DNA from: a virus | Strand: one strand, 5' to 3' | DNA: 26,271 nt | IMG/VR virus record: IMGVR_UViG_3300045107_000393 | Coordinates: 1-26,271 of that record | Part shown: positions 385-18,034 of the stretch, piece after piece | Numbering within the stretch: position 1 is the first letter of the stretch | Layout of the letters: every line of letters begins with the position of its first letter | Translations under genes and position numbers: made by a program | Notes under the pieces: generated by a model | Database searches by the model: none | What the model saw: only the letters and a program-made list of their open reading frames with translations | Told to the model about the DNA's origin: nothing

Positions 385-2502
385 CTACCCGTTCACGATA
401 GGCCGGACCTCCCAGGTGATTGCCATGCCGGGCCGGTAGACCACCTCGTTGCCGTACTTGATGCTGGCCTTCAGGTGTTCTGCCAAGGGCTTGTCGTACT
501 TTTCGATCTGCCTGATGGCGCGGTCGACGGCGTTGCGGAAGGCGTCACGGACGTTCTTGCGCTTGTCTCCGACCCTGCGCTGTCGCCCGCCGAGGCCCTT
601 GCCGCCCTCGATGTACTTGACCAGGGCCGCCATCTCCTTCTCGATTTCCTCAATGCGGGCGTGGTCATCACGTTCACGCGCTTCTTCCATTTCCTCGAAC
701 AGTTCCCTCGCTTGCTGCTTGCACTCGTTCAGCGCACGCCTGTCCGCGACGTCTCCGGCGTCCCCCAAGGGGATACCCTGAGTCACTTGGTAGCCATCTT
801 CAATATCCTCCGGAGCGATGCCGCTGCCGGCAGGCTGTTCAATTGTGTTGACGGCATTTCCGACAGCGATCTCATAGACCGACATCTCTCGATCCGGAAA
901 CGCCAGCAGGAGGTTGATGTACTCCGCGCCCTTGTCGACGTTGAGCAGGCAGATGGTGTTGCGGCCCTGAAATCGCGTCTCCCAGACCGCACCGCGTTTG
1001 CGAAAGAAGTTCTCCGGCTGCTTCTCCAACGAAATCACCGCCGGTACCGAGTTCACCGAAGCGGACTCGTAGACCGTTCGCAGCAGACAGTCGCCGGGCA
1101 ATGAGCGCTCCCGGATCTGGGTGAAGTAACGCCGCCCGAGCTCGTCGAGCGCTCCCGTCACCTCGTCGGCGTGCCGCTTGTAGAGATCGAATACCCGCTG
1201 CGCAGCCTGACCGGCGCTGCTGTAGTTCAGGTACTTGAGTACGCGACCGACGTCGGGGTAGCTGCTGATGAACTGTGTCACGTCCGTCAGGTTCTTCACC
1301 TGGTTGGCTCGCTCCAGGTAGGCGGCGGCCATGATCTTGTCCTCGCCTTTGTCCCGGCTCTGGGTGAAGACGTCGACCTTGTAGTGCTCCACCGGGTCGT
1401 GCTGATCGGCCTTGGCGGCGAGAATGGCGAAGCGCCGGTCGATGCACTGCGAGCAGCCGCCGCAATGGGTGTGCTGATTCGTCATCTCCCAAGTGTGCGT
1501 GCAGGTCATCGAGTGCTTGATCAAGTCGTGGCAGCCCGCGTCGGTGATGATCTTGACGACGTCGGCCTTGGTTTTCCAGATGTAGGGGTTCTCGACGGTG
1601 AAAGGCTCGCCTGCCACCAATGAAAGCAGGTCTTGGAAGCCTTTCATCACTCTCGGGTGCGTTGTCCTTGTGGCACGGCCACCGACCACCTGAGCGCACA
1701 CAGGAAGGTTCAGGCTGATGACGCCGTTCTCGTAAAAGCGGACGCTCTTGAGATTGAGCATCCGAGCAATCGTCGCGCCGATGGAGACGTACAGGAACGA
1801 CCGGCTGCGCTGGGTGTACTCATGGTTCAGCTCCTTGGCTTTGTGCACGCGGACGCTGATGCGATGCGGCACGTTGTCGCCAGCCTTCTCGGCCAGCATC
1901 TGCTCAAGGGTGCGGTGACGCTTGTTGAGCTTGGAAGTGGACTTGTGGGTGACCAGGAGCACGCGTCGCTTCTGGTTCACGACCTCGTCGATGGCGCCTG
2001 CCAGCGAGTCCAGTCCGCCTGAAAACATCACCACCTGCTCCGGCTTTCCGTACACCTGCTGGGTGTCGTCAAACTGGAGGTATTGCTGGAATGGGTGCTC
2101 CTGGTCGAGCTTGACGAAATCGAAGCGGTATTGGTCGTCGGACAGGAATCCGAGCGTCGAGCACAACGTGTCCTGCACCTGCGCGCTGCTCCAGAAGTCC
2201 GGATCGCGCACCGGCACGACGAAATGCAGATCGCGCCGCCAGCCATCGCCAAAGGTATCGACATCGTCCGCGCCGCGCCGGATGACCTGGTCGGCGCTGT
2301 AGACGTAGGTGGCGATCTCCAGCAGATCGTGGAACCGCGACGGCACGCTACTGAACAGCTTGCTGTGGACGTCCTCGATGCGCAGGGTGATGTTGCCGTG
2401 CCCCGGCCTGCCCGAGAGTCGGAGCCGCAGATCGCGCGCAGGATCTTCGCTGATGCCTTGGGCGGACACGTTGCCGCAGAGAACGTATCGCTTATCTTGC
2501 AT
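385..2502 (-). CDS. QueC-like PP-loop enzyme with long C-terminal extension (predicted defence protein)
   Basis: 705 residues. The PP-loop motif FSGGLDS at 160-166 binds ATP in the N-type ATP pyrophosphatase family. A four-cysteine zinc site (C334, then CGGC and SQC giving C347, C350, C353) is the signature of QueC, which makes 7-cyano-7-deazaguanine. Housekeeping QueC is only about 220-240 residues. Here about 150 residues precede the PP-loop and about 350 follow the zinc site. The tail includes an acidic, Glu-rich probable coiled coil at 590-632 and a basic helical end around 645-695. Long QueC relatives are known from the Qat (QatC) and type IV CBASS (Cap9) anti-phage systems. The start at 2502 overlaps the upstream gene by 11 nt, with GGGAG upstream, indicating coupled translation. 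A role in protein or nucleotide modification during defence is inferred; substrate unknown. Confidence 0.82.
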   Translation of the reverse strand: MQDKRYVLCGNVSAQGISEDPARDLRLRLSGRPGHGNITLRIEDVHSKLFSSVPSRFHDLLEIATYVYSADQVIRRGADDVDTFGDGWRRDLHFVVPVRDPDFWSSAQVQDTLCSTLGFLSDDQYRFDFVKLDQEHPFQQYLQFDDTQQVYGKPEQVVMFSGGLDSLAGAIDEVVNQKRRVLLVTHKSTSKLNKRHRTLEQMLAEKAGDNVPHRISVRVHKAKELNHEYTQRSRSFLYVSIGATIARMLNLKSVRFYENGVISLNLPVCAQVVGGRATRTTHPRVMKGFQDLLSLVAGEPFTVENPYIWKTKADVVKIITDAGCHDLIKHSMTCTHTWEMTNQHTHCGGCSQCIDRRFAILAAKADQHDPVEHYKVDVFTQSRDKGEDKIMAAAYLERANQVKNLTDVTQFISSYPDVGRVLKYLNYSSAGQAAQRVFDLYKRHADEVTGALDELGRRYFTQIRERSLPGDCLLRTVYESASVNSVPAVISLEKQPENFFRKRGAVWETRFQGRNTICLLNVDKGAEYINLLLAFPDREMSVYEIAVGNAVNTIEQPAGSGIAPEDIEDGYQVTQGIPLGDAGDVADRRALNECKQQARELFEEMEEARERDDHARIEEIEKEMAALVKYIEGGKGLGGRQRRVGDKRKNVRDAFRNAVDRAIRQIEKYDKPLAEHLKASIKYGNEVVYRPGMAITWEVRPIVNG

Positions 2503-3280
2503 CGCTACTCGCTCCCATCTTCAACTCGTCCCTCATCTTCTTCAGCGCGTAGCCCGCGAATCCGTCCGACGATTTTCTGGAGATGTCGCCGCCCTCGTGA
2601 AAGCGGTGCTTGGAAAACCACTCGCTCGAAAACTGCTCGACGATGAGCGAGGCTTCCCGGGTATGGATTTGCAGTGCGGCATTGAATTCGGCGGCCTGAT
2701 TCATCGTGGCAAAACGCATCCCCTCGCCGAGCTGGGTGTTGACGACCTTGCTCAGGAAATACTGGAGACCCTCGTTGGCCAGCCGAGCGAAAAAGTGCCG
2801 TGAAAACTCGCCGAACTCCCGAGGCTTGCCCAAGTCGGCCAAGGCCGCACGCATCGTGTCCGGGTCGGAAGAGAACAGCGAATGCAGCTTGGGGGCGAGC
2901 ACATCGTTGACGGCACCGACGATGGCCCGGTTGGCGAGCATGCCGAGATCGGAGCGCTTGCCGTTGCCTTCTACGCGCCGATCCAGCGCCTCGGTGATTG
3001 CCGTGGTCACATCGGTGAGCGAGGGATCGGCGGGGAGATGGATGCCCGCCGCGGCGAGATGCAAGAGGATGTCGGGCTTCTTGGCGGCAATCGCCATCTG
3101 CGTCATCAGCCAGACGGCCTCGGTGTAGCCGACATCCTTCATGACGAAGGAGAAAGCCTTTTCCGCCGCCGCGATGGTGGCTTGGGCGATCTGAGACACG
3201 TTGGCGCCGGCGGCGATCAGGCCGACGACCTCCTTCCACTCCTTCGTCCTTGGCAGAACCCCGAGCCGAACATGCCCCAT
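2492..3280 (-). CDS. MGHVRLG-type protein, partner of the QueC-like enzyme
   Basis: 262 residues, mainly predicted helical, with no enzyme motif, signal peptide or membrane segment that I can see. The N-terminus is Met-Gly-His-Val-Arg-Leu-Gly followed by LPRTKEW, a start I recall from widely distributed hypothetical proteins. Start at 3280 is preceded by a purine-rich GGGGGAAA stretch. The gene overlaps the QueC-like gene by 11 nt, so the two are probably made in fixed ratio. In Qat, QatB sits beside QatC and also begins Met-Gly. Qat-type QueC enzymes are reported to modify partner protein N-termini, so this protein may be a substrate. That role is inference; similarity to QatB beyond the Met-Gly start is not evident by eye. 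Confidence 0.72.
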   Translation of the reverse strand: MGHVRLGVLPRTKEWKEVVGLIAAGANVSQIAQATIAAAEKAFSFVMKDVGYTEAVWLMTQMAIAAKKPDILLHLAAAGIHLPADPSLTDVTTAITEALDRRVEGNGKRSDLGMLANRAIVGAVNDVLAPKLHSLFSSDPDTMRAALADLGKPREFGEFSRHFFARLANEGLQYFLSKVVNTQLGEGMRFATMNQAAEFNAALQIHTREASLIVEQFSSEWFSKHRFHEGGDISRKSSDGFAGYALKKMRDELKMGASSDAR

Positions 3281-3937: not shown

Positions 3938-4389
3938 ATGCATCGACAACCGGCCCGTCCCTGGCGGCGCAGATCGCCAATCTGCCCAAACTGCCCATGA
4001 GCGAGTTGTGGGCGCTTTGGGACAAGTATTTCCCGCGCCGCCCGCCGCACCACAACCGGAACTATGTCGAAGGTCGGCTCGCCTACAAGATCCAGGAGGA
4101 AGCGCTGGGCACCAAGCTCGAGGTGCAGACGCAGATGGCGCGCATCGGCGAAGCGCAATCGAAGATCAAGACGCAGCGCGGCGTCGAAGTCCAGGTGGTG
4201 CCGGGCACCGTGCTGGTGCGCGAATTCGACAACCGCGAGCACCGCGTGACCGCGCAGGCCGACGGCAGCTTCGAATATGAAGGCCGCCGCTTCAAAAGCC
4301 TGTCTGGTGTCGCGCGCCACATCACCGGTACCCAATGGTCGGGACCGCTGTTCTTTGGCATCACCAAGACCAAGCGGGGTGGGAAATGA
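3934..4389 (+). CDS. DUF2924 protein, recombinase-associated
   Basis: 151 residues. ATG 3934 has AAGGAG at 3921-3926; an in-frame TTG at 3928 would put the ribosome site too close. ELWALWDKYFP, then the NYVEGRLAYKIQEEALG stretch in the N-terminal third, is the DUF2924 pattern. The C-terminal half (VEVQVVPGTVLVREF, then YEGRRFKSLSGVARHITG) looks like a small DNA-modulating fold often seen in this family. DUF2924 genes commonly stand next to serine recombinases. Here the stop overlaps the recombinase ATG by 4 nt. A role as accessory factor of the recombinase is inferred. Confidence 0.82.
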   Translation: MNASTTGPSLAAQIANLPKLPMSELWALWDKYFPRRPPHHNRNYVEGRLAYKIQEEALGTKLEVQTQMARIGEAQSKIKTQRGVEVQVVPGTVLVREFDNREHRVTAQADGSFEYEGRRFKSLSGVARHITGTQWSGPLFFGITKTKRGGK

Positions 4390-5753
4390 AAGCGGTGGTC
4401 ACCAAGAAACGCTGCGCCGTCTACACCCGCGTGTCCACGGATGAGCGCCTCGACCAGTCCTTCAACTCGCTCGACGCCCAGCGCGAGGCGGGCCAGGCCT
4501 ACATCGTGAGCCAGCGCGCCGAGGGCTGGCTGCCGGTGGGCGACGACTACGACGACGGCGGCTACTCGGGCGGAAACATGGAACGCCCGGCCTTGAAGCG
4601 CCTGCTGGCCGACATCGTCGCCGACCAGATCGACATCGTGGTGGTCTACAAGATCGACCGCCTGACCCGCAGCCTGACCGACTTCGCCAAGCTGGTGGAG
4701 GTGTTCGAGCGCCACAAGGTGTCGTTCGTGTCGGTCACCCAGCAATTCAACACCACGACCTCGATGGGACGGCTGATGCTCAACATCCTGCTGTCCTTCG
4801 CCCAGTTCGAGCGCGAGGTCACGGGCGAGCGCATCCGCGACAAGATCGCCGCCAGCAAGCGCAAGGGCTTGTGGATGGGCGGCTACACGCCGCTGGGCTA
4901 CGAGATCAAGGACCGCAAGCTCGTCATCGAGGAAAAGGACGCCGAGATCATCCGGCGGATCTTCACGCGCTTCACCGAGCTGCGCTCGATCACCGACGTC
5001 GTCCGCGAACTCGCCCTCGAAGGCCTGACCACCAAGCCCAACCGTCTCAAGGACGGCCGCGTGCGCAACGGCACGCCGATGGACAAGAAGTACATCTCCA
5101 AGCTGCTGCGCAATCCGATCTACGTCGGCGAGATCCGCCACAAGGGAACGGTGTTTGCCGGGCAGCACGAGCCGATCATCACCCGCCAACTGTGGGATCG
5201 GGTGCAGGGCATCCTGGCCGAGGATGCCTACGAGCGGATGGGCAAGACCCAAACCCGCCACAAGACCGATGCCTTGCTGCGCGGGCTGATGTACGGCCCC
5301 GACGGCGGCAAGTACCACATCACTTACAGCAAGAAGCCCTCGGGCAAGAAGTACCGCTACTACATCCCCAAGGCCGACAGCCGCTACGGCTACCGCAGCA
5401 GCGCCACCGGCATGATCCCGGCCGACCAGATCGAGGAAGTGGTGGTGAACCTGCTGATCGGCGCGCTGCAGTCGCCCGAGAGCATTCAGGGAGTCTGGAA
5501 CACCGTGCGCAGCCAGTACCCGGAGATCGACGAACCGACCACCGTGCTGGCCATGCGCCGTCTCGGCGAGGTCTGGAAACAACTGTTCCCCGCCGAGCAA
5601 GTGCGTCTGGTCAATCTGCTGATCGAGCGTGTCCAGCTCCTCTCCGACGGCGTCGACATCGTCTGGCGCGAGTCCGGCTGGCGGGAGCTGGCCGGGGAAC
5701 TGCGTCCTGACAGCATCGGCGGCGAGATGCTGGAGCTGGAGGCACTGTCATGA
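4386..5753 (+). CDS. large serine recombinase (probable phage integrase)
   Basis: 455 residues. An N-terminal resolvase domain (about 8-150) carries the catalytic serine S17 in YTRVSTDE, with R15 beside it and the IDRLTRS motif further on. A Recombinase domain follows (about 165-285, including GLWMGGYTPLGYE and KLLRNPIYVGEI). The zinc-ribbon region (about 295-335, LRGLMYGPDGG to KKYRYY) keeps the general fold pattern but has no CxxC cysteine pairs. The enzyme would cut and join DNA through a covalent phosphoserine for integration or excision. The start overlaps DUF2924 and the stop overlaps the next gene, each by ATGA. It is the only integrase visible; tmRNA sites are more usually used by tyrosine integrases. 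Confidence 0.9.
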   Translation: MKAVVTKKRCAVYTRVSTDERLDQSFNSLDAQREAGQAYIVSQRAEGWLPVGDDYDDGGYSGGNMERPALKRLLADIVADQIDIVVVYKIDRLTRSLTDFAKLVEVFERHKVSFVSVTQQFNTTTSMGRLMLNILLSFAQFEREVTGERIRDKIAASKRKGLWMGGYTPLGYEIKDRKLVIEEKDAEIIRRIFTRFTELRSITDVVRELALEGLTTKPNRLKDGRVRNGTPMDKKYISKLLRNPIYVGEIRHKGTVFAGQHEPIITRQLWDRVQGILAEDAYERMGKTQTRHKTDALLRGLMYGPDGGKYHITYSKKPSGKKYRYYIPKADSRYGYRSSATGMIPADQIEEVVVNLLIGALQSPESIQGVWNTVRSQYPEIDEPTTVLAMRRLGEVWKQLFPAEQVRLVNLLIERVQLLSDGVDIVWRESGWRELAGELRPDSIGGEMLELEALS

Positions 5754-10845: not shown

Positions 10846-11437
10846 CTACCGTGTCCGTATCTCGGTGCGCAATGCCCGGTTGCTGCGCGCCATCGAACAG
10901 GCGGGCCACCGGCCGGGGGCTCAGTTCGCCAATGCAGTTGGCATCAGCTACAGCGGGGCGCTGCTGCCCTACCTCAATCTCACGCGCTCACCGCTGACGC
11001 CGGATGGCCTGCTGCGGGAATGCGCCTGGGCCTTGTGCGACTTCCTGCAAGCATCCCCTTCCGATCTGTGGTCGGACGCCCAGCTCCAGCCGCTGCAGCA
11101 GAACTATTCCAGCGTCGATCTGGACGCGGACAGCGTGCAATCGCTGGTCAGCGGCACATATACCGTAGACGACCCGCTGCGGCTGGCCAGCCACGCGCAG
11201 GCAGGCCGCATTCTTCAGAGCGCCATCGACTCGCTGACACCGCGTGAGGCCCGCGTGATCCGCGAACGGTTCTTTGCCGATGCCTCGCTTGACGAGGTTG
11301 CCGAAAAGATGGCGGTCACACGCGAGCGTGTCCGCCAGATCGAGGTCAAGGCCATGCGCAAGCTGCGCCACGAATCGCGCATCCCGCGTGATCTGGCCGG
11401 CATCGCTGACGTGATCGGAGGAGCTGCGGATGCTTGA
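10838..11437 (+). CDS. XRE-like HTH fused to sigma70 region 4
   Basis: 199 residues. Residues 128-178 (SLTPREARVIRERFF, SLDEVAEKMAVTRERVRQIEVKAMRKL) are a textbook sigma70 region 4, which reads the -35 element. Residues about 8-80 look like a Cro/C1-type HTH with the usual C-terminal extension (NARLLRAIEQAG, FANAVGIS, then ALCDFLQASPSDLWSD). Region 2 is absent, so it cannot act as a complete sigma factor. It may redirect host polymerase or act as a phage transcription activator. It overlaps the primase gene by 8 nt. Confidence 0.78.
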   Translation: MSDYRVRISVRNARLLRAIEQAGHRPGAQFANAVGISYSGALLPYLNLTRSPLTPDGLLRECAWALCDFLQASPSDLWSDAQLQPLQQNYSSVDLDADSVQSLVSGTYTVDDPLRLASHAQAGRILQSAIDSLTPREARVIRERFFADASLDEVAEKMAVTRERVRQIEVKAMRKLRHESRIPRDLAGIADVIGGAADA

Positions 11438-13712
11438 CTTCAACGACGCGCAAACGCCCCCTCCTCAAGACCTCGGCGCCGAACGCGAAGCGATCCGCGC
11501 CGAGCTGCTGGTGCGCCTGGAATCTGTGCTGTTCACGCTGTTTCCGGCCGGCAAGAAGCGCCGAGGGCGTTTCCTGATCGGCGACATCCTCGGCAGTCCC
11601 GGCGACAGCCTCGAAGTCGTGCTCAATGGCGACAAGGCCGGTCTGTGGACAGATCGCGCCACTGGCGATGGCGGCGACATCTATGCACTGATCGCCGCGC
11701 ACCTCGGTATCGACGTACTGAGCGACTTTCCTCGGGTGCTCGACGCGGCCGCCGATCTGCTCGGACGCTCGCGCTCTGTACCGCTGCGCAAGTCCCGCAA
11801 AAAGGAAGTGCCCGTCGATGAGCTGGGGCCGGCCACGGCGAAGTGGGACTACCTCGATGCCGAGGGCCATCTCATCGCCGTCGTCTATCGCTACGACCCG
11901 CCTGGGCAGAAGAAACAGTTTCGGCCCTGGGATGCGAAGCGGCGCAAGATGGCCCCGCCCGAGCCGCGCCCGCTGTACAACCAGCCGGGGCTGAAGGACG
12001 CCGCGCAGGTGGTGTTGGTCGAGGGCGAGAAGTGCGCGCAGGCGCTGATCGACGCTGGCATCAATGCCACCACTGCCATGCACGGCGCCAACGCGCCGGT
12101 CGACAAGACCGACTGGTCGCCGCTGTCCGGCAAGGCAGTTCTGATTTGGCCCGACCGTGACAAGCCGGGCTGGGAGTACGCCACGCAGGCGGCACAGGCG
12201 CTGCTGTCGACTGGCGCCAAGTCCTGCCACATCTTGTACCCGCCCGAAGAAGCCGCCGAGGGCTGGGACGCGTTTGATGCCATCGCCGAGGGCTTCGACG
12301 TCGCCACCTTCCTCACTCACGGCCCGCGCCTGCAAATGCACGACGTCGCCGATGACGTTGATCCAGTCGTCAGCAGCGACGAGTCGGTGTGGGGCACCGA
12401 GGACGCGCTGGCGCTGTCCTTCACGCGGCGCTACCACCGCGACTGGCGCTACGTCGCCGCGTGGGGCCGCTGGCTGGTATGGGACGGACAACGCTGGCGC
12501 GCCGAGGACACGCTGGCGGCGACCGACCTGATCCGCAGCGTCTGCCGCCAGGCGGCCGTGCGCGCCGACAACCCCAAGGTCGCCGCCAAATTGGCCAGCT
12601 CCGGCACGGTCGGCGGCGTCGAGCGGCTGGCGCGCGCAGACCGCCGGCACGCGGCGACCACCGACGAGTGGGACGCCGATCCCTGGCTGCTCAACACGCC
12701 GGGCGGCGTGGTCGATCTCAGGACAGGCCGGATACGCCCGCACGAGCGCGCCGACCGGATGACCAAGATCACCACGGCCACGCCGGCGGGCGAATGTCCG
12801 CGATGGACGTCCTTCCTGTCCGACATCACCGGTGGCGACGCCGAGTTGCAGTCCTACCTGCAACGAATGGTCGGCTACTGCCTGACCGGCGTGACCAGTG
12901 CGCACGCGCTGTTCTTCCTGTACGGCACCGGCGCCAACGGCAAGAGCGTGTTCGCCAACGTGGTCGCTACCCTCCTCGGCGACTACGCCTCCACCGCGCC
13001 GATGGACACCTTCGTCGAGACGCGCGGCGACCGCCATCCGACCGATCTCGCCGGACTGCGCGGCGCCCGCTTCGTGACGGCCATCGAAACCGAACAGGGA
13101 CGGCGTTGGAACGAGTCCAAGGTCAAGGCGATCACCGGCGGCGACAAGATCTCCGCGCGCTTCATGCGCCAGGACTTCTTCGAGTACGTGCCGCAGTTCA
13201 AGCCGGTGATCGTCGGCAACCACAAGCCCGCCATCCGCAACATCGACGAAGCGATGAAGCGGCGCATGCACCTCGTCCCGTTCACGGTGACCATCCCGCC
13301 CGAGAAGCGCGACGGCCGACTGACCGAGAAGCTGCTCGCCGAACGCGACGGCATCCTTGCCTGGGCCGTCGCCGGTTGTCTCGAATGGAGGCGCGAGGGC
13401 TTGAAGCCGCCCGCCTGTGTCGTATCGGCGACGGAGGAGTACTTCGAAGCCGAGGACGCGCTCGGGCAGTGGATCGATGAGCGCTGTCTGCTCGCCAACA
13501 GCCACCGCGAAGGCGTGTCCGAACTGTTCGCCGACTGGCGCGAATGGGCCGAACGGGCCGGCGAATACGTGGGCTCGGTCAAGCGCTTCTCCGAGCTGAT
13601 GGCGGCGCGCAAGTTCGAGAAATGCCGGCTGACCGGGGGCGCCCGCGGCATCGCGGGGATCGCCCTGCGCCCCAAGCCGTACAGCCACGCCTACCCCTAT
13701 CGGGACGACTGA
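11430..13712 (+). CDS. phage primase-helicase (TOPRIM + SF3/D5-like)
   Basis: 760 residues. A TOPRIM-type domain lies around 190-290, with the acidic residue E198 in VVLVEGEKC and D242/D244 in WPDRDKPG. After a linker, a D5_N-like region (about 325-490) leads into a superfamily 3 helicase with Walker A GTGANGKS (499-506). Helicase continuation includes FVTAIETEQG, KVKAITGGDKISARFM and PVIVGNHKP. This is the P4-type primase/helicase layout that opens and primes the phage origin. A symmetric repeat block that could be that origin follows 23 bp downstream. Confidence 0.9.
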   Translation: MLDFNDAQTPPPQDLGAEREAIRAELLVRLESVLFTLFPAGKKRRGRFLIGDILGSPGDSLEVVLNGDKAGLWTDRATGDGGDIYALIAAHLGIDVLSDFPRVLDAAADLLGRSRSVPLRKSRKKEVPVDELGPATAKWDYLDAEGHLIAVVYRYDPPGQKKQFRPWDAKRRKMAPPEPRPLYNQPGLKDAAQVVLVEGEKCAQALIDAGINATTAMHGANAPVDKTDWSPLSGKAVLIWPDRDKPGWEYATQAAQALLSTGAKSCHILYPPEEAAEGWDAFDAIAEGFDVATFLTHGPRLQMHDVADDVDPVVSSDESVWGTEDALALSFTRRYHRDWRYVAAWGRWLVWDGQRWRAEDTLAATDLIRSVCRQAAVRADNPKVAAKLASSGTVGGVERLARADRRHAATTDEWDADPWLLNTPGGVVDLRTGRIRPHERADRMTKITTATPAGECPRWTSFLSDITGGDAELQSYLQRMVGYCLTGVTSAHALFFLYGTGANGKSVFANVVATLLGDYASTAPMDTFVETRGDRHPTDLAGLRGARFVTAIETEQGRRWNESKVKAITGGDKISARFMRQDFFEYVPQFKPVIVGNHKPAIRNIDEAMKRRMHLVPFTVTIPPEKRDGRLTEKLLAERDGILAWAVAGCLEWRREGLKPPACVVSATEEYFEAEDALGQWIDERCLLANSHREGVSELFADWREWAERAGEYVGSVKRFSELMAARKFEKCRLTGGARGIAGIALRPKPYSHAYPYRDD

Positions 13713-13735: not shown

Positions 13736-13833
13736 GAGTGACGGATTTGACAGGTCTGCTGGTTTACCTCTCACGCGTGCGCGCACGCGCACATCATGGA
13801 GAGTTTCCGGCAAACCCGTCACATCCGTCACTC
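13736..13833. repeat. symmetric iteron-like repeat block, candidate replication origin
   Basis: Four copies of a 9-bp unit (GTGACGGAT and variants): two in direct orientation at 13738-13755 and two inverted at 13814-13831. The outermost arms GAGTGACGGAT (13736-13746) and ATCCGTCACTC (13823-13833) are a perfect 11-bp inverted repeat. Nested inside are GGTTT/AAACC, CTCTC (13768)/GAGAG (13799) and a 16-bp perfect palindrome at 13774-13789. It lies between the primase-helicase and the resolvase genes. Origin or structured RNA are the two main readings. Confidence 0.6.
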
Positions 13834-13858
13834 ACCCACCGGAAATGGAGCAATGACG

Positions 13859-14323
13859 ATGACCACGACCATCCTTGCCCTCGATCTGGGCACCACCACC
13901 GGCTGGGCGCTGCGCGACAACGACGGCCATATCACGAGCGGCACCGAGCATTTCAAGCCGCAGCGCTTCGAAGGCGGCGGAATGCGCTTCCTGCGCTTCA
14001 AACGCTGGCTCAGCGAGATCAAGCAGTCCTGCGACGGCATCGACTGCCTGCACTTCGAGGAAGTGCGCCGCCACGCATCAACCGACGCCGCACACGCCTA
14101 CGGCGGCTTTCTGGCCACGCTCACCGCTTGGTGCGAGCACCACGGCATCCCCTACCAGGGCGTGCCGGTCGGCACGATCAAGAAGCACGTCACCGGCAAG
14201 GGTAATGCAGGCAAGGACGAGGTGATCGCGGCGATCCGCGCGCGCGGCCATGCCCCGGCCGACGACAACGAAGCCGACGCACTGGCGCTGCTGGCCTGGG
14301 CCATCGACACGCAGGAGGTGTGA
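13859..14323 (+). CDS. RuvC-like Holliday junction resolvase
   Basis: 154 residues from ATG 13859 (GGAG 8 nt upstream); ATG 13853 would sit 2 nt from that site. RNase H-fold resolvase motifs: D9 in ILALDLGTTTGWAL, E67/E68 in LHFEEVRRH, and DDNEADALALLAWA with D136, D137 and D140. It would resolve branched DNA before packaging. It follows the candidate origin and is coupled to a small gene starting 1 nt after its stop. Confidence 0.85.
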   Translation: MTTTILALDLGTTTGWALRDNDGHITSGTEHFKPQRFEGGGMRFLRFKRWLSEIKQSCDGIDCLHFEEVRRHASTDAAHAYGGFLATLTAWCEHHGIPYQGVPVGTIKKHVTGKGNAGKDEVIAAIRARGHAPADDNEADALALLAWAIDTQEV

Positions 14324-15279: not shown

Positions 15280-16701
15280 TTGAACACGCTCAACGTCGAG
15301 TACCGCAAGGTCGAGGCGCTGATTCCCTACGCCCGCAATCCGCGCACGCACGCCGAGAGCCAGATCGCCAAGATCGCGGCCAGCATCGTCGAGTACGGTT
15401 GGACGAATCCGATCCTGGTCGACGGCGACAACGGCATCATCGCCGGGCACGGGCGTTTGGCCGCTGCGCGCAAGCTCGGCCTGGATCAGGTGCCGGTGAT
15501 CGAACTTGCGCACCTGACCCCGGCGCAGAAGCGCGCGCTCGTCATCGCCGATAACCGGCTGGCGCTGGATGCGGGCTGGGACGAGGAGCTGCTGGCGCTG
15601 GAACTGGCCGAGCTTTCCGAGGCCGGGTACGAGCTGGCGCTGACCGGCTTCGAGCGGTTCGAGATCGACGCGCTGCTGGCCGATGCCGCCATTGCCGATG
15701 AGCCAGAGCAGCAGGATGCGGAAGCTGATGACGAGCCCGACGCCGACGATGACGTGCCGGGTACGCCGGTGGTGCCGGTGTCGCGCCCGGGCGACGTCTG
15801 GCAGCTCGGGGCACACCGCTTGATCTGCGGCGACGCCGCCGACCCGAGCGTGATCGCCGCGCTGATGCAAGGCGACAGCGCGCGGCTGTGCTTCACTTCG
15901 CCGCCCTACGACAACCAGCGCGACTACACCTCGGGCGGGATCAAAGATTGGGATGGCCTGATGCGCGGCGTGTTCGCGCACCTGCCGATGGCCGACGACG
16001 GTCAGGTGCTGGTCAACCTGGGCCTGATCCACCGCGACAACGAGGTGATCCCGTATTGGGACGCGTGGCTCGGCTGGATGCGCCAGCAGGGGTGGCGGCG
16101 CTTTGCGTGGTACGTGTGGGACCAGGGGCCAGGCATGCCCGGCGACTGGGCGGGCCGCTTCGCGCCGAGCTTCGAGTTCGTCTTCCACTTCAACCGGCAG
16201 AGCCGCAAGCCGAACAAGATCGTCCCCTGCAAGCACGCAGGCCAGGAATCCCACCTGCGCGCTGACGGGTCGTCCACCGCGATGCGCGGTAAGGATGGCG
16301 AGGTGGGCGGTTGGACGCACAAGGGGCTGCCCACGCAAGACAACCGCATCCCCGACTCGGTGATCCGCGTGATGCGCCACAAGGGCAAGATCGGTCAGGA
16401 CATCGATCACCCGGCCGTGTTCCCGGTGGCCCTGCCGGAGTTCGTCATCGAGGCCTACACGGACGCGGGCGACATCGTGTTCGAACCCTTCGGCGGCAGC
16501 GGCACGACGATGCTGGCCGCCGAGCGCACCGGTCGCATCTGCCGTACGGTGGAGATCGCGCCCGAGTACGTGGATGTGGCGATCAAGCGCTTCCAGCAGA
16601 ACCACCCTGGTGTGCCGGTCACGCTGCTGGCAACGAGCCAGTTCTTCGAGCAGGTCGCCGCCGAGCGCGCCACCACCCCTGATGCCGAGGTGGCCGCATG
16701 A
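15280..16701 (+). CDS. ParB-domain DNA methyltransferase fusion, TSPPY type
   Basis: 473 residues from TTG 15280, with GGGA upstream; no better in-frame ATG is near and the start fits the paralogue. The ParB N-terminal domain (about 8-130) includes PYARNPRTH, GWTNPIL and GIIAGHGRLAAARKLGL. A beta-class methyltransferase follows, with motif IV TSPPY at 206-210 before the SAM motif EPFGGSGTT near 430. TSPPY occurs in N4-cytosine and some N6-adenine enzymes, so the target base is open. An acidic linker (about 138-160) joins the domains. No restriction enzyme gene is nearby, so this is an orphan phage methyltransferase. Confidence 0.85.
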   Translation: MNTLNVEYRKVEALIPYARNPRTHAESQIAKIAASIVEYGWTNPILVDGDNGIIAGHGRLAAARKLGLDQVPVIELAHLTPAQKRALVIADNRLALDAGWDEELLALELAELSEAGYELALTGFERFEIDALLADAAIADEPEQQDAEADDEPDADDDVPGTPVVPVSRPGDVWQLGAHRLICGDAADPSVIAALMQGDSARLCFTSPPYDNQRDYTSGGIKDWDGLMRGVFAHLPMADDGQVLVNLGLIHRDNEVIPYWDAWLGWMRQQGWRRFAWYVWDQGPGMPGDWAGRFAPSFEFVFHFNRQSRKPNKIVPCKHAGQESHLRADGSSTAMRGKDGEVGGWTHKGLPTQDNRIPDSVIRVMRHKGKIGQDIDHPAVFPVALPEFVIEAYTDAGDIVFEPFGGSGTTMLAAERTGRICRTVEIAPEYVDVAIKRFQQNHPGVPVTLLATSQFFEQVAAERATTPDAEVAA

Positions 16702-16771
16702 CAAAACGACAGGACTGGCGTTTTGCACGCCCGCAGGGCGCCCGTCAGGGTGGCGCACAGGGATGTGCGCC
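16702..16771 (+). promoter_or_regulatory. three consecutive hairpins ahead of second methyltransferase
   Basis: CAAAACG (16702-16708)/CGTTTTG (16719-16725), CGCCC (16728-16732)/GGGCG (16736-16740), and GGCGCAC (16752-16758)/GTGCGCC (16765-16771). The third has the only Shine-Dalgarno-like sequence (AGGGA) in its 6-nt loop, and its stem touches the ATG at 16772. This suggests translational control of the second methyltransferase. Confidence 0.5.
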
Positions 16772-18034
16772 ATGAACTGGCTGGCCGACAAGATCGAACA
16801 GTGGCCGACCGCCAAGTTGCTGCCCTACGCACGCAACGCGCGCACCCATTCCGAGGAGCAGGTGGCGCAGATCGCCGCCAGCATCGCGGAGTTCGGATTC
16901 ACCAATCCGATCCTGGCGGGCAGCGACGGCATCATCGTCGCTGGCCACGGACGTCTCGCCGCCGCCCAGAAGCTCGGGCTGGAGCGCGTGCCGGTGGTCG
17001 TGCTCGATCACCTGACGCCGACCCAGCGCCGGGCGCTCGTCATCGCGGACAACCGCATCGCCGAGAACGCAGGCTGGGATGAGGCGATGCTGCGGATCGA
17101 ACTGGAAGCCTTGCAGCTCGAAGGCTTCGATCTGGACATCACCGGCTTCGACGCCGACGCGCTGGCCGAACTGATTGCGGGCGACGAGCCGGATAACGAG
17201 GGTCAGACAGACGAGGATGCGGTGCCCGAGGTCGGCGAGACGCCCATCTCGCGTCCGGGCGATGTCTGGATCATGGGCCAGCACCGCCTGCTGTGCGGCG
17301 ACTCGACCGTGGTCGAGAGCTACGAGCGGTTGATGCAGGGCGACCTGGCGGACATGGTCTTCACCGACCCGCCGTACAATGTGAACTACGGGAGCAGCCC
17401 GAAGGACAAGCTGCGCGGCAAGGATCGCGCGATTCTGAACGACAACCTGGGGGATGGCTTCTACGACTTCCTGCTGGCGGCGCTGACGCCTACCGTGGCG
17501 CATAGCCGTGGCGGCATCTACGTGGCGATGTCCTCCAGCGAACTCGATGTGCTGCAGGCCGCCTTTCGCGCCGCTGGCGGTCACTGGTCGACCTTCATCA
17601 TCTGGGCGAAGAACACCTTCACGCTGGGTCGTTCCGACTACCAACGCCAGTACGAACCGATTCTGTACGGATGGCCCGAGGGAGCGCATCGGCACTGGTG
17701 TGGCGACCGCGACCAAGGCGACGTGTGGAGCATCAAGAAGCCGCAGAAGAACGACCTGCACCCGACGATGAAGCCGGTGGAGTTGGTCGAGCGAGCCATC
17801 CGCAATTCGAGTCGCCCGGGTAACGTGGTACTCGATCCGTTCGGTGGTTCTGGCACAACGTTGATCGCCGCCGAGAAGTCAGGCCGCATCGCGCGGCTGA
17901 TCGAACTCGATCCGAAGTACGTCGATGTGATCGTGCGCCGGTGGGAGGAGTTCACCGGGAAGCGGGCCACCCGCGAAGCGGATGGCGCGGTGCTTGATCA
18001 GGCGGCCAGCGAGTCCTCGACGATCTCGCAGTGA
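16772..18034 (+). CDS. ParB-domain DNA methyltransferase fusion, TDPPY type
   Basis: 420 residues from ATG 16772; ATG 16763 is possible but would abut the ribosome site. The ParB-type domain (about 10-130: PYARNARTH, GFTNPIL, GHGRLAAAQKLGL) is closely related to that of the preceding gene, so the two are paralogues. The methyltransferase half has TDPPY at 198-202, then HPTMKPVEL and DPFGGSGTT near 361-370. The catalytic halves have diverged more than the ParB halves, which suggests different target sites. The 3' end overlaps the minus-strand gene 17998-18366 by 37 nt. Confidence 0.85.
   Translation: MNWLADKIEQWPTAKLLPYARNARTHSEEQVAQIAASIAEFGFTNPILAGSDGIIVAGHGRLAAAQKLGLERVPVVVLDHLTPTQRRALVIADNRIAENAGWDEAMLRIELEALQLEGFDLDITGFDADALAELIAGDEPDNEGQTDEDAVPEVGETPISRPGDVWIMGQHRLLCGDSTVVESYERLMQGDLADMVFTDPPYNVNYGSSPKDKLRGKDRAILNDNLGDGFYDFLLAALTPTVAHSRGGIYVAMSSSELDVLQAAFRAAGGHWSTFIIWAKNTFTLGRSDYQRQYEPILYGWPEGAHRHWCGDRDQGDVWSIKKPQKNDLHPTMKPVELVERAIRNSSRPGNVVLDPFGGSGTTLIAAEKSGRIARLIELDPKYVDVIVRRWEEFTGKRATREADGAVLDQAASESSTISQ

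Follow-up and report, generated by a model that had tools for sequence, protein, structure and literature searches.

Genes at the locus

The analysed window, a stretch of 26,271 nucleotides comprising positions 1 to 26,271 of the IMG/VR record IMGVR_UViG_3300045107_000393, is a prophage-type fragment stored as a virus record. It encodes a large serine recombinase (4335-5753), an antirepressor, a Sak4-like annealing protein, a Cas4-type exonuclease, a primase-helicase, a RuvC-like protein, two ParB-methyltransferases, a GpA-type terminase, a portal protein, and an S49 protease. The gap between the stop codon of the primase-helicase gene (13712) and the start of the RuvC-like gene (13853) is filled by a 98-nt element (Table 1), and its location between a primase-helicase and a resolvase gene, as given in an earlier note on this DNA, is thus correct. 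The RuvC-like gene was judged to be a neighbour that lies outside the element.

Other parts of the window contain several features that are not connected with the element. The 3' part of a tmRNA at positions 1-127, together with the large serine recombinase, points to a probable prophage end in a tmRNA gene. A QatC-like (QueC-fold) protein encoded on the minus strand (385-2502) adjoins this end and is a candidate defence gene; the uncharacterised gene beside it (2492-3280) had no match to a defence model. Two tandem overlapping ParB-N6/N4 methyltransferase genes (15280-18034) are apparently a duplicated pair, and two adjacent methylase genes are also present in the isolated phage AcaML1.

The primase-helicase matches the Pfam families D5_N and DUF5906 and phrog_6088; NF005477 (NCBIfam) matches it over the whole length, and a match to TIGR01613 ('phage/plasmid primase, P4 family') was also obtained. 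For the full-length AF2 model, whose mean pLDDT is only 60, Foldseek identified DnaG primases and AsfvPrimPol, with the DnaG likeness in the N-terminal part. Because of the poor quality of this model, the C-terminal domain (residues 623-760) was modelled alone. The obtained model (mean pLDDT 84.7) confidently predicts a winged helix with a helix-helix-strand-strand wing, comprising a helix at residues 696-710, the recognition helix at 717-726, and the wing strands at 730-733 and 739-746. Among solved structures, its top match in Foldseek is the winged helix of RFX in complex with X-box DNA (E 1.8e-3, TM 0.72 by target).

Table 1. Coordinates of the origin-like element, its parts, and the adjacent genes in the window
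Feature	Position	Strand	Basis or remark
P4-family primase-helicase gene	11430..13712	+	DnaG/TOPRIM-type primase, D5_N/SF3-type helicase, C-terminal winged helix
Winged-helix coding part, residues 690-760	13497..13709	+	Inferred iteron-binding domain; AF2 and Foldseek
Recognition helix, residues 717-726	13578..13607	+	Codon of residue 718 at 13581-13583; residues 718 and 725 follow iteron class
Whole origin-like element	13736..13833	.	Anatomy, fold; homologous elements after ~200 unique primase genes
Left outer iteron GTGACGGAT	13738..13746	+
Left inner iteron TTGACAGGT	13747..13755	+
Inner dyad	13757..13812	.	Pairs in the fold; two-sided changes of inner pairs in relatives
Inner dyad, pair 1	13757-13762 / 13807-13812		TGCTGG / CCGGCA
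Inner dyad, pair 2	13768-13772 / 13799-13803		CTCTC / GAGAG
Core, 23-bp alternating purine-pyrimidine run (Z-DNA-prone)	13772..13794	.	Contains the 16-bp palindrome CGCGTGCGCGCACGCG at 13774-13789
Right inner iteron GTGACGGGT	13814..13822	-	Reads 13822-13814
Right outer iteron GTGACGGAT	13823..13831	-	Reads 13831-13823
RuvC-like Holliday junction resolvase gene	13853..14323	+	phrog_159, E 2e-37; neighbour, judged outside the element

Anatomy of the element

The element consists of two tandem nonamer pairs of 18 bp each that are opposed across a 58-bp spacer (13738-13831), with a 16-bp palindrome near the centre. These features, as well as the ability of the 98 nt to fold into one long interrupted hairpin, had been proposed in the earlier note and were reproduced here: the predicted folding energy is -55.4 kcal/mol, compared with -27.4 (sd 3.4) for shuffled sequences (z = -8.3). 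The two pairs of the inner dyad are both paired in the fold. The label 'mirror-like' in the earlier note proved to be wrong, since the element is an inverted (dyad) repeat, and the reading as a mirror repeat was rejected. The two left nonamers match each other only imperfectly. The 22-bp motif has two matches in the window at three or fewer mismatches, both of them within the element, and none in 100 shuffles. The purine-pyrimidine run in the core is the longest alternation in the window.

Conservation of the element after primase genes

A scan of IMG/VR with one double nonamer revealed at least 119 stretches, at least 103 of them with an inverted partner. Among the matches listed, all 103 paired motifs are located directly after a primase gene, and none of the 13 chance matches, defined by the absence of both an inverted partner and an edge problem, has a primase. 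The first tally among the matches listed had found a primase match in 101 of the 103 paired stretches; in the two exceptions, L010 and L093, the last 25-27 primase residues are encoded directly upstream of the motif, either without the matching rest of the primase gene (L010) or with the primase end at the contig end (L093).

Inverted 22-bp arms were observed after 212 unique primase genes, mostly with 17-21 of 22 matches, the shuffles reaching 16 at most. Conservation of the nonamers and compensatory changes in relatives, which the earlier note had suggested looking for, were both found: the arms are kept, and both members of a pair have changed in 16 of 30 cases in one set and in 4 of 21 in another. 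Protein-binding sites that change in concert would produce such a pattern, and so would a cruciform. Many close relatives, with primases 75-85% identical, have different iterons in the same layout; the alternative iterons are mainly TCTGACGCA GCTGACGCA, and the GGTGACCGAA-type and GGTGACTCAA-type were also observed. In the arms of 67 non-redundant elements, the tandem period is exactly 9 (13.7 of 18 matches versus 7.3 in shuffled arms, z = 28), and none of the other tandem shifts tested in these arms exceeds z 6.6. The number of iterons is variable, with three copies in the left arm and two in the right arm of AcaML1. The motif was found in seven of the ten host genomes or records searched, with essentially only one inverted pair per primase locus.

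A looser form of the element, inverted tandem 8-10-mers at the same place, follows the distant primases (39-50% identity) of the mycobacteriophage Keshu (39% identical), Microvirga, and M. nodulans, and is also found on alphaproteobacterial plasmids. Comparable inverted tandem nonamers were not found for the distant primases of Curtobacterium phage Gambol and a Thermaerobacter plasmid, so not every member of the P4 family has this anatomy.

Two individual elements are of separate interest. In Keshu (L284, 4001-4128), inverted tandem octamers GATCTACA are located after the primase/helicase gene, with a RusA-like resolvase gene adjoining, and this site is a candidate origin for that mycobacteriophage group. 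In an Eleftheria terrae plasmid (L281, 4899-4997), a 61% identical primase is followed by an inverted repeat that is almost uninterrupted, its arms being 48 nt long and separated by only 3 nt. This is an extreme version of the element in which the centre is different and AT-rich.

Co-variation of iterons and the recognition helix

The iterons were divided into two classes according to base six of their core, TGACGG (G-class) or TGACGC (C-class). Among the 25 primase columns that are most informative for the class, 23 fall within residues 687-758, and residue 718 ranks first: 118 of the 121 G-class proteins have K at this position, and 74 of the 77 C-class proteins have R. The class correlates with C-terminal distance after the rest of the protein is removed (partial r 0.51; -0.20 for the reverse). 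On the tree of residues 1-640, 14 changes were counted for the class and the same number for residue 718. In nine independent supported pairs, residue 718 tracks the class in 8.6 on average and never opposes it. Over all variable columns, six or more of the nine pairs are reached only by residues 718 and 725 of the recognition helix and residue 738 of the wing, the average for the 293 variable columns of residues 1-640 being 0.17.

Natural swaps were observed in the pairs L235/L231, L245/L135, and L236/L232, which are ~90-100% identical until ~180 nt before the stop codon, ~60-85% identical over the winged-helix end and the element, and then again ~90% identical. In L235 and L231, the primase and helicase domains are 97-100% identical, and similarity is regained in the RuvC-like gene. 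At the level of sequence, these swaps exchange the winged-helix end and the element as one block. Since the end of the gene is adjacent to the element, hitch-hiking in recombination contributes to the linkage and could explain part of it. The restriction of the signal to three contact-type positions argues for function and against hitch-hiking, without excluding the latter. In the absence of binding data, we predict that residues 718, 725, and 738 likely set the origin specificity.

A contig with two primase loci was also observed. On this contig of Stenotrophomonas acidaminiphila (NZ_LDJO01000022.1), the loci L143 and L148 are ~53 kb apart and belong to different classes, TGACGG and TGACGC, respectively, as would be expected if equal classes interfere with each other.

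The alternating core

An AT-rich region between the iteron sets is absent: the GC content of the core is 57% on average, and no 40-mer at the element exceeds 47.5% AT. The purine-pyrimidine alternation of the core extends in relatives over 20.5 nt on average, compared with 6.3 nt in shuffled sequences, and is 12 nt or longer in 60 of 64, while the sequence itself varies; in AcaML1 it covers 20 nt. Comparison of 70 disjoint pairs gave 70 transitions and 5 transversions inside the run, and 167 and 145, respectively, outside (p ~7e-12). A CpG mutation bias was considered as the source of this excess and rejected: the ratio at non-CpG sites of the run is 53:2, compared with 70:40 for alternating runs of 8 or more in the coding region of the same pairs. 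As the transition excess is not a result of CpG decay, the alternation appears to be under selection. Such a pattern would be expected if the core were prone to form Z-DNA or sensitive to torsion in some other way, and it suggests that the core is of this kind, in the absence of any data on Z-DNA formation. No purine-pyrimidine alternation was found in P4 crr, pRN1, or Keshu, and searches of the open-licence literature revealed nothing specific on Z-DNA at phage origins or on this phage element.

Comparison with known replication systems

The Sulfolobus plasmid pRN1 has a ~100-nt inverted repeat directly 3' of its gene for a primase-SF3 helicase-winged helix protein; this stem-loop, with 21-nt arms and a 58-nt loop, is required in cis for replication and is sufficient in cis when moved (PMC4234260). 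The element studied here is likewise a ~100-nt inverted repeat 3' of the replication gene. It differs in the primase, which has the DnaG/TOPRIM fold here and is AEP-type in pRN1, an archaeal plasmid with an AT-rich core (26% GC) that does not alternate. In the pRN1 sequence (L289, ~5081-5185), we also noted a tandem 9-bp repeat in the arms, TGTCCATAG TGTCCAACT. This is our own reading of one sequence and goes beyond the published description, in which the pRN1 origin has no iterons (PMC4234260). A stem-loop 3' of the replication gene was also proposed for the Bordetella phages (BIP-1), which have an AEP primase (PMC4234260); unlike the element, the downstream BIP-1 sequence examined has no tandem nonamer arms.

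The origins of SaPIs and PICIs (Rep or Pri-Rep) and the SCCmec Cch2 site are located immediately 3' of the initiator-helicase gene, and two iteron sets that surround a central region are bound by the C-terminal domain of the helicase (PMC6092414, PMC7581432). The element shares with them the position immediately 3' of the initiator gene and the two iteron sets, whereas their central region is AT-rich and that of the element has ~57% GC and the alternating run.

The P4 alpha protein combines a TOPRIM primase-helicase with a C-terminal iteron-binding winged helix (PMC4234260). The similarity with P4 thus includes an initiator composed of a TOPRIM primase, an SF3-type helicase, and a C-terminal winged helix, and short tandem iterons directly downstream: P4 crr begins 46 bp after the alpha gene and contains type 1 octamers in 9-bp tandem and in inverted orientation. 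P4, a satellite, differs in having two separate cis regions, two 120-bp copies of crr, and AT-rich sequence (38% GC in crr), whereas the studied element is the only cluster in the window, itself a fragment, and belongs to a prophage that carries terminase and portal genes of its own.

Interpretation as a replication origin

The replication-origin reading of the iterons, suggested in the earlier note, is strongly supported: they are conserved, exclusively linked to primase genes, phased at exactly 9 bp, and variable in number, and they have co-evolved with the primase recognition helix. Replication activity itself has not been shown. The element is very probably the phage's self-encoded replication origin, or an essential initiator-binding part of it, that is bound by the phage's own primase-helicase; data on replication, binding, or the start site are lacking. 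The choice of an origin over a required accessory site rests on the analogy with pRN1, SaPI/PICI, and P4. P4 alpha requires both ori1 and crr in cis, and the element, which lies within an operon-like gene row, might similarly be a site that the primase-helicase binds to enhance or regulate replication or its own operon, with strand opening elsewhere. We consider this unlikely: there is one pair per primase locus in the seven host genomes, no promoter-like site is located nearby, and no convincing second iteron cluster was found either in the window, which as a fragment does not exclude a site outside, or in positions 1-50000 of AcaML1. In addition, the single site 3' of the pRN1 gene is sufficient in cis, and PICI rep with the adjacent ori drives plasmid replication.

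The very stable fold and the pairs that change on both sides in relatives are also compatible with a function as RNA: a long hairpin, formed by the transcript of the primase and resolvase genes or by one antisense to it, would serve as a regulator, processing site, or terminator. This reading, which covers the small RNA named in the earlier note as the alternative, is highly improbable. An RNA would favour G-U pairs on its own strand; the mismatches of inverted pairs in the 67 non-redundant elements comprise 111 G.T and 158 A.C, the folding energies of the two strands are -56.8 and -57.7 kcal/mol, and the plus strand folds better in 31 of 67, so no RNA of the plus strand is favoured. At the gathering score, Rfam matched only the tmRNA elsewhere in the window and nothing at the element; a permissive search yielded only hairpin matches of the microRNA type, which scored far below gathering, and one C4 antisense match (E 7.5), and these were taken as chance. 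Neither a U-run after the hairpin, as required for an intrinsic terminator, nor a promoter was found at the element. Moreover, a hairpin needs neither iteron phasing nor a variable number of iterons, and co-evolution with the winged helix and the conserved purine-pyrimidine alternation also speak against an RNA. Extrusion of the palindrome as a cruciform that is cut by the RuvC-like resolvase, the nick or break then starting replication or packaging, is hardly credible. The RuvC-like gene follows the element in 182 of 194 relatives, and a resolvase gene, of the RusA-like type, adjoins the Keshu element as well, but the element is kept at several loci where no RuvC-like neighbour was detected (L035, L034, L037, and L119), and its specificity tracks the primase and not a structure-specific nuclease.

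For the element as an origin, we propose the following scheme, in which binding, ring loading, melting, and the bidirectional start are inferred. The nonamers would be read by the C-terminal winged helix of the primase-helicase encoded immediately upstream, and the two inverted sets of two nonamers would give rise to two oppositely facing helicase rings that flank the 58-bp core and melt or pump it. The TOPRIM primase domain would then prime both strands, and the host polymerase would extend them in both directions. The alternating core would probably serve as a torsion-sensitive (Z-DNA-/cruciform-prone) opening element instead of an AT-rich one. In the window, the cumulative GC skew is lowest at 14156, which is only a weak hint; in AcaML1, the minimum is ~4 kb from the element.

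A more far-reaching hypothesis, which we put forward tentatively and with more doubt than conviction, is that the core of the whole family is a selected Z-DNA- or cruciform-forming replacement for the AT-rich unwinding element, flipped from the B-form by nonamer-bound rings or negative supercoiling as the opening step, and that iterons and winged helix switch jointly, forming an interchangeable specificity module by which related prophages can coexist in one cell.

Two of these observations are surprising: the alternation of the core, which appears to be selected, and the fact that iterons and recognition helix have repeatedly switched together. For a large group of proteobacterial prophages without an annotated replication start, the element provides a concrete candidate. 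A single anatomy, a helicase gene followed by inverted tandem nonamers, would link pRN1, P4, SaPI/PICI, and these phages. The family is further an experimentally accessible example of an origin core that appears to be selected for alternation and not for AT-richness, which bears on how self-loading helicases open a duplex.
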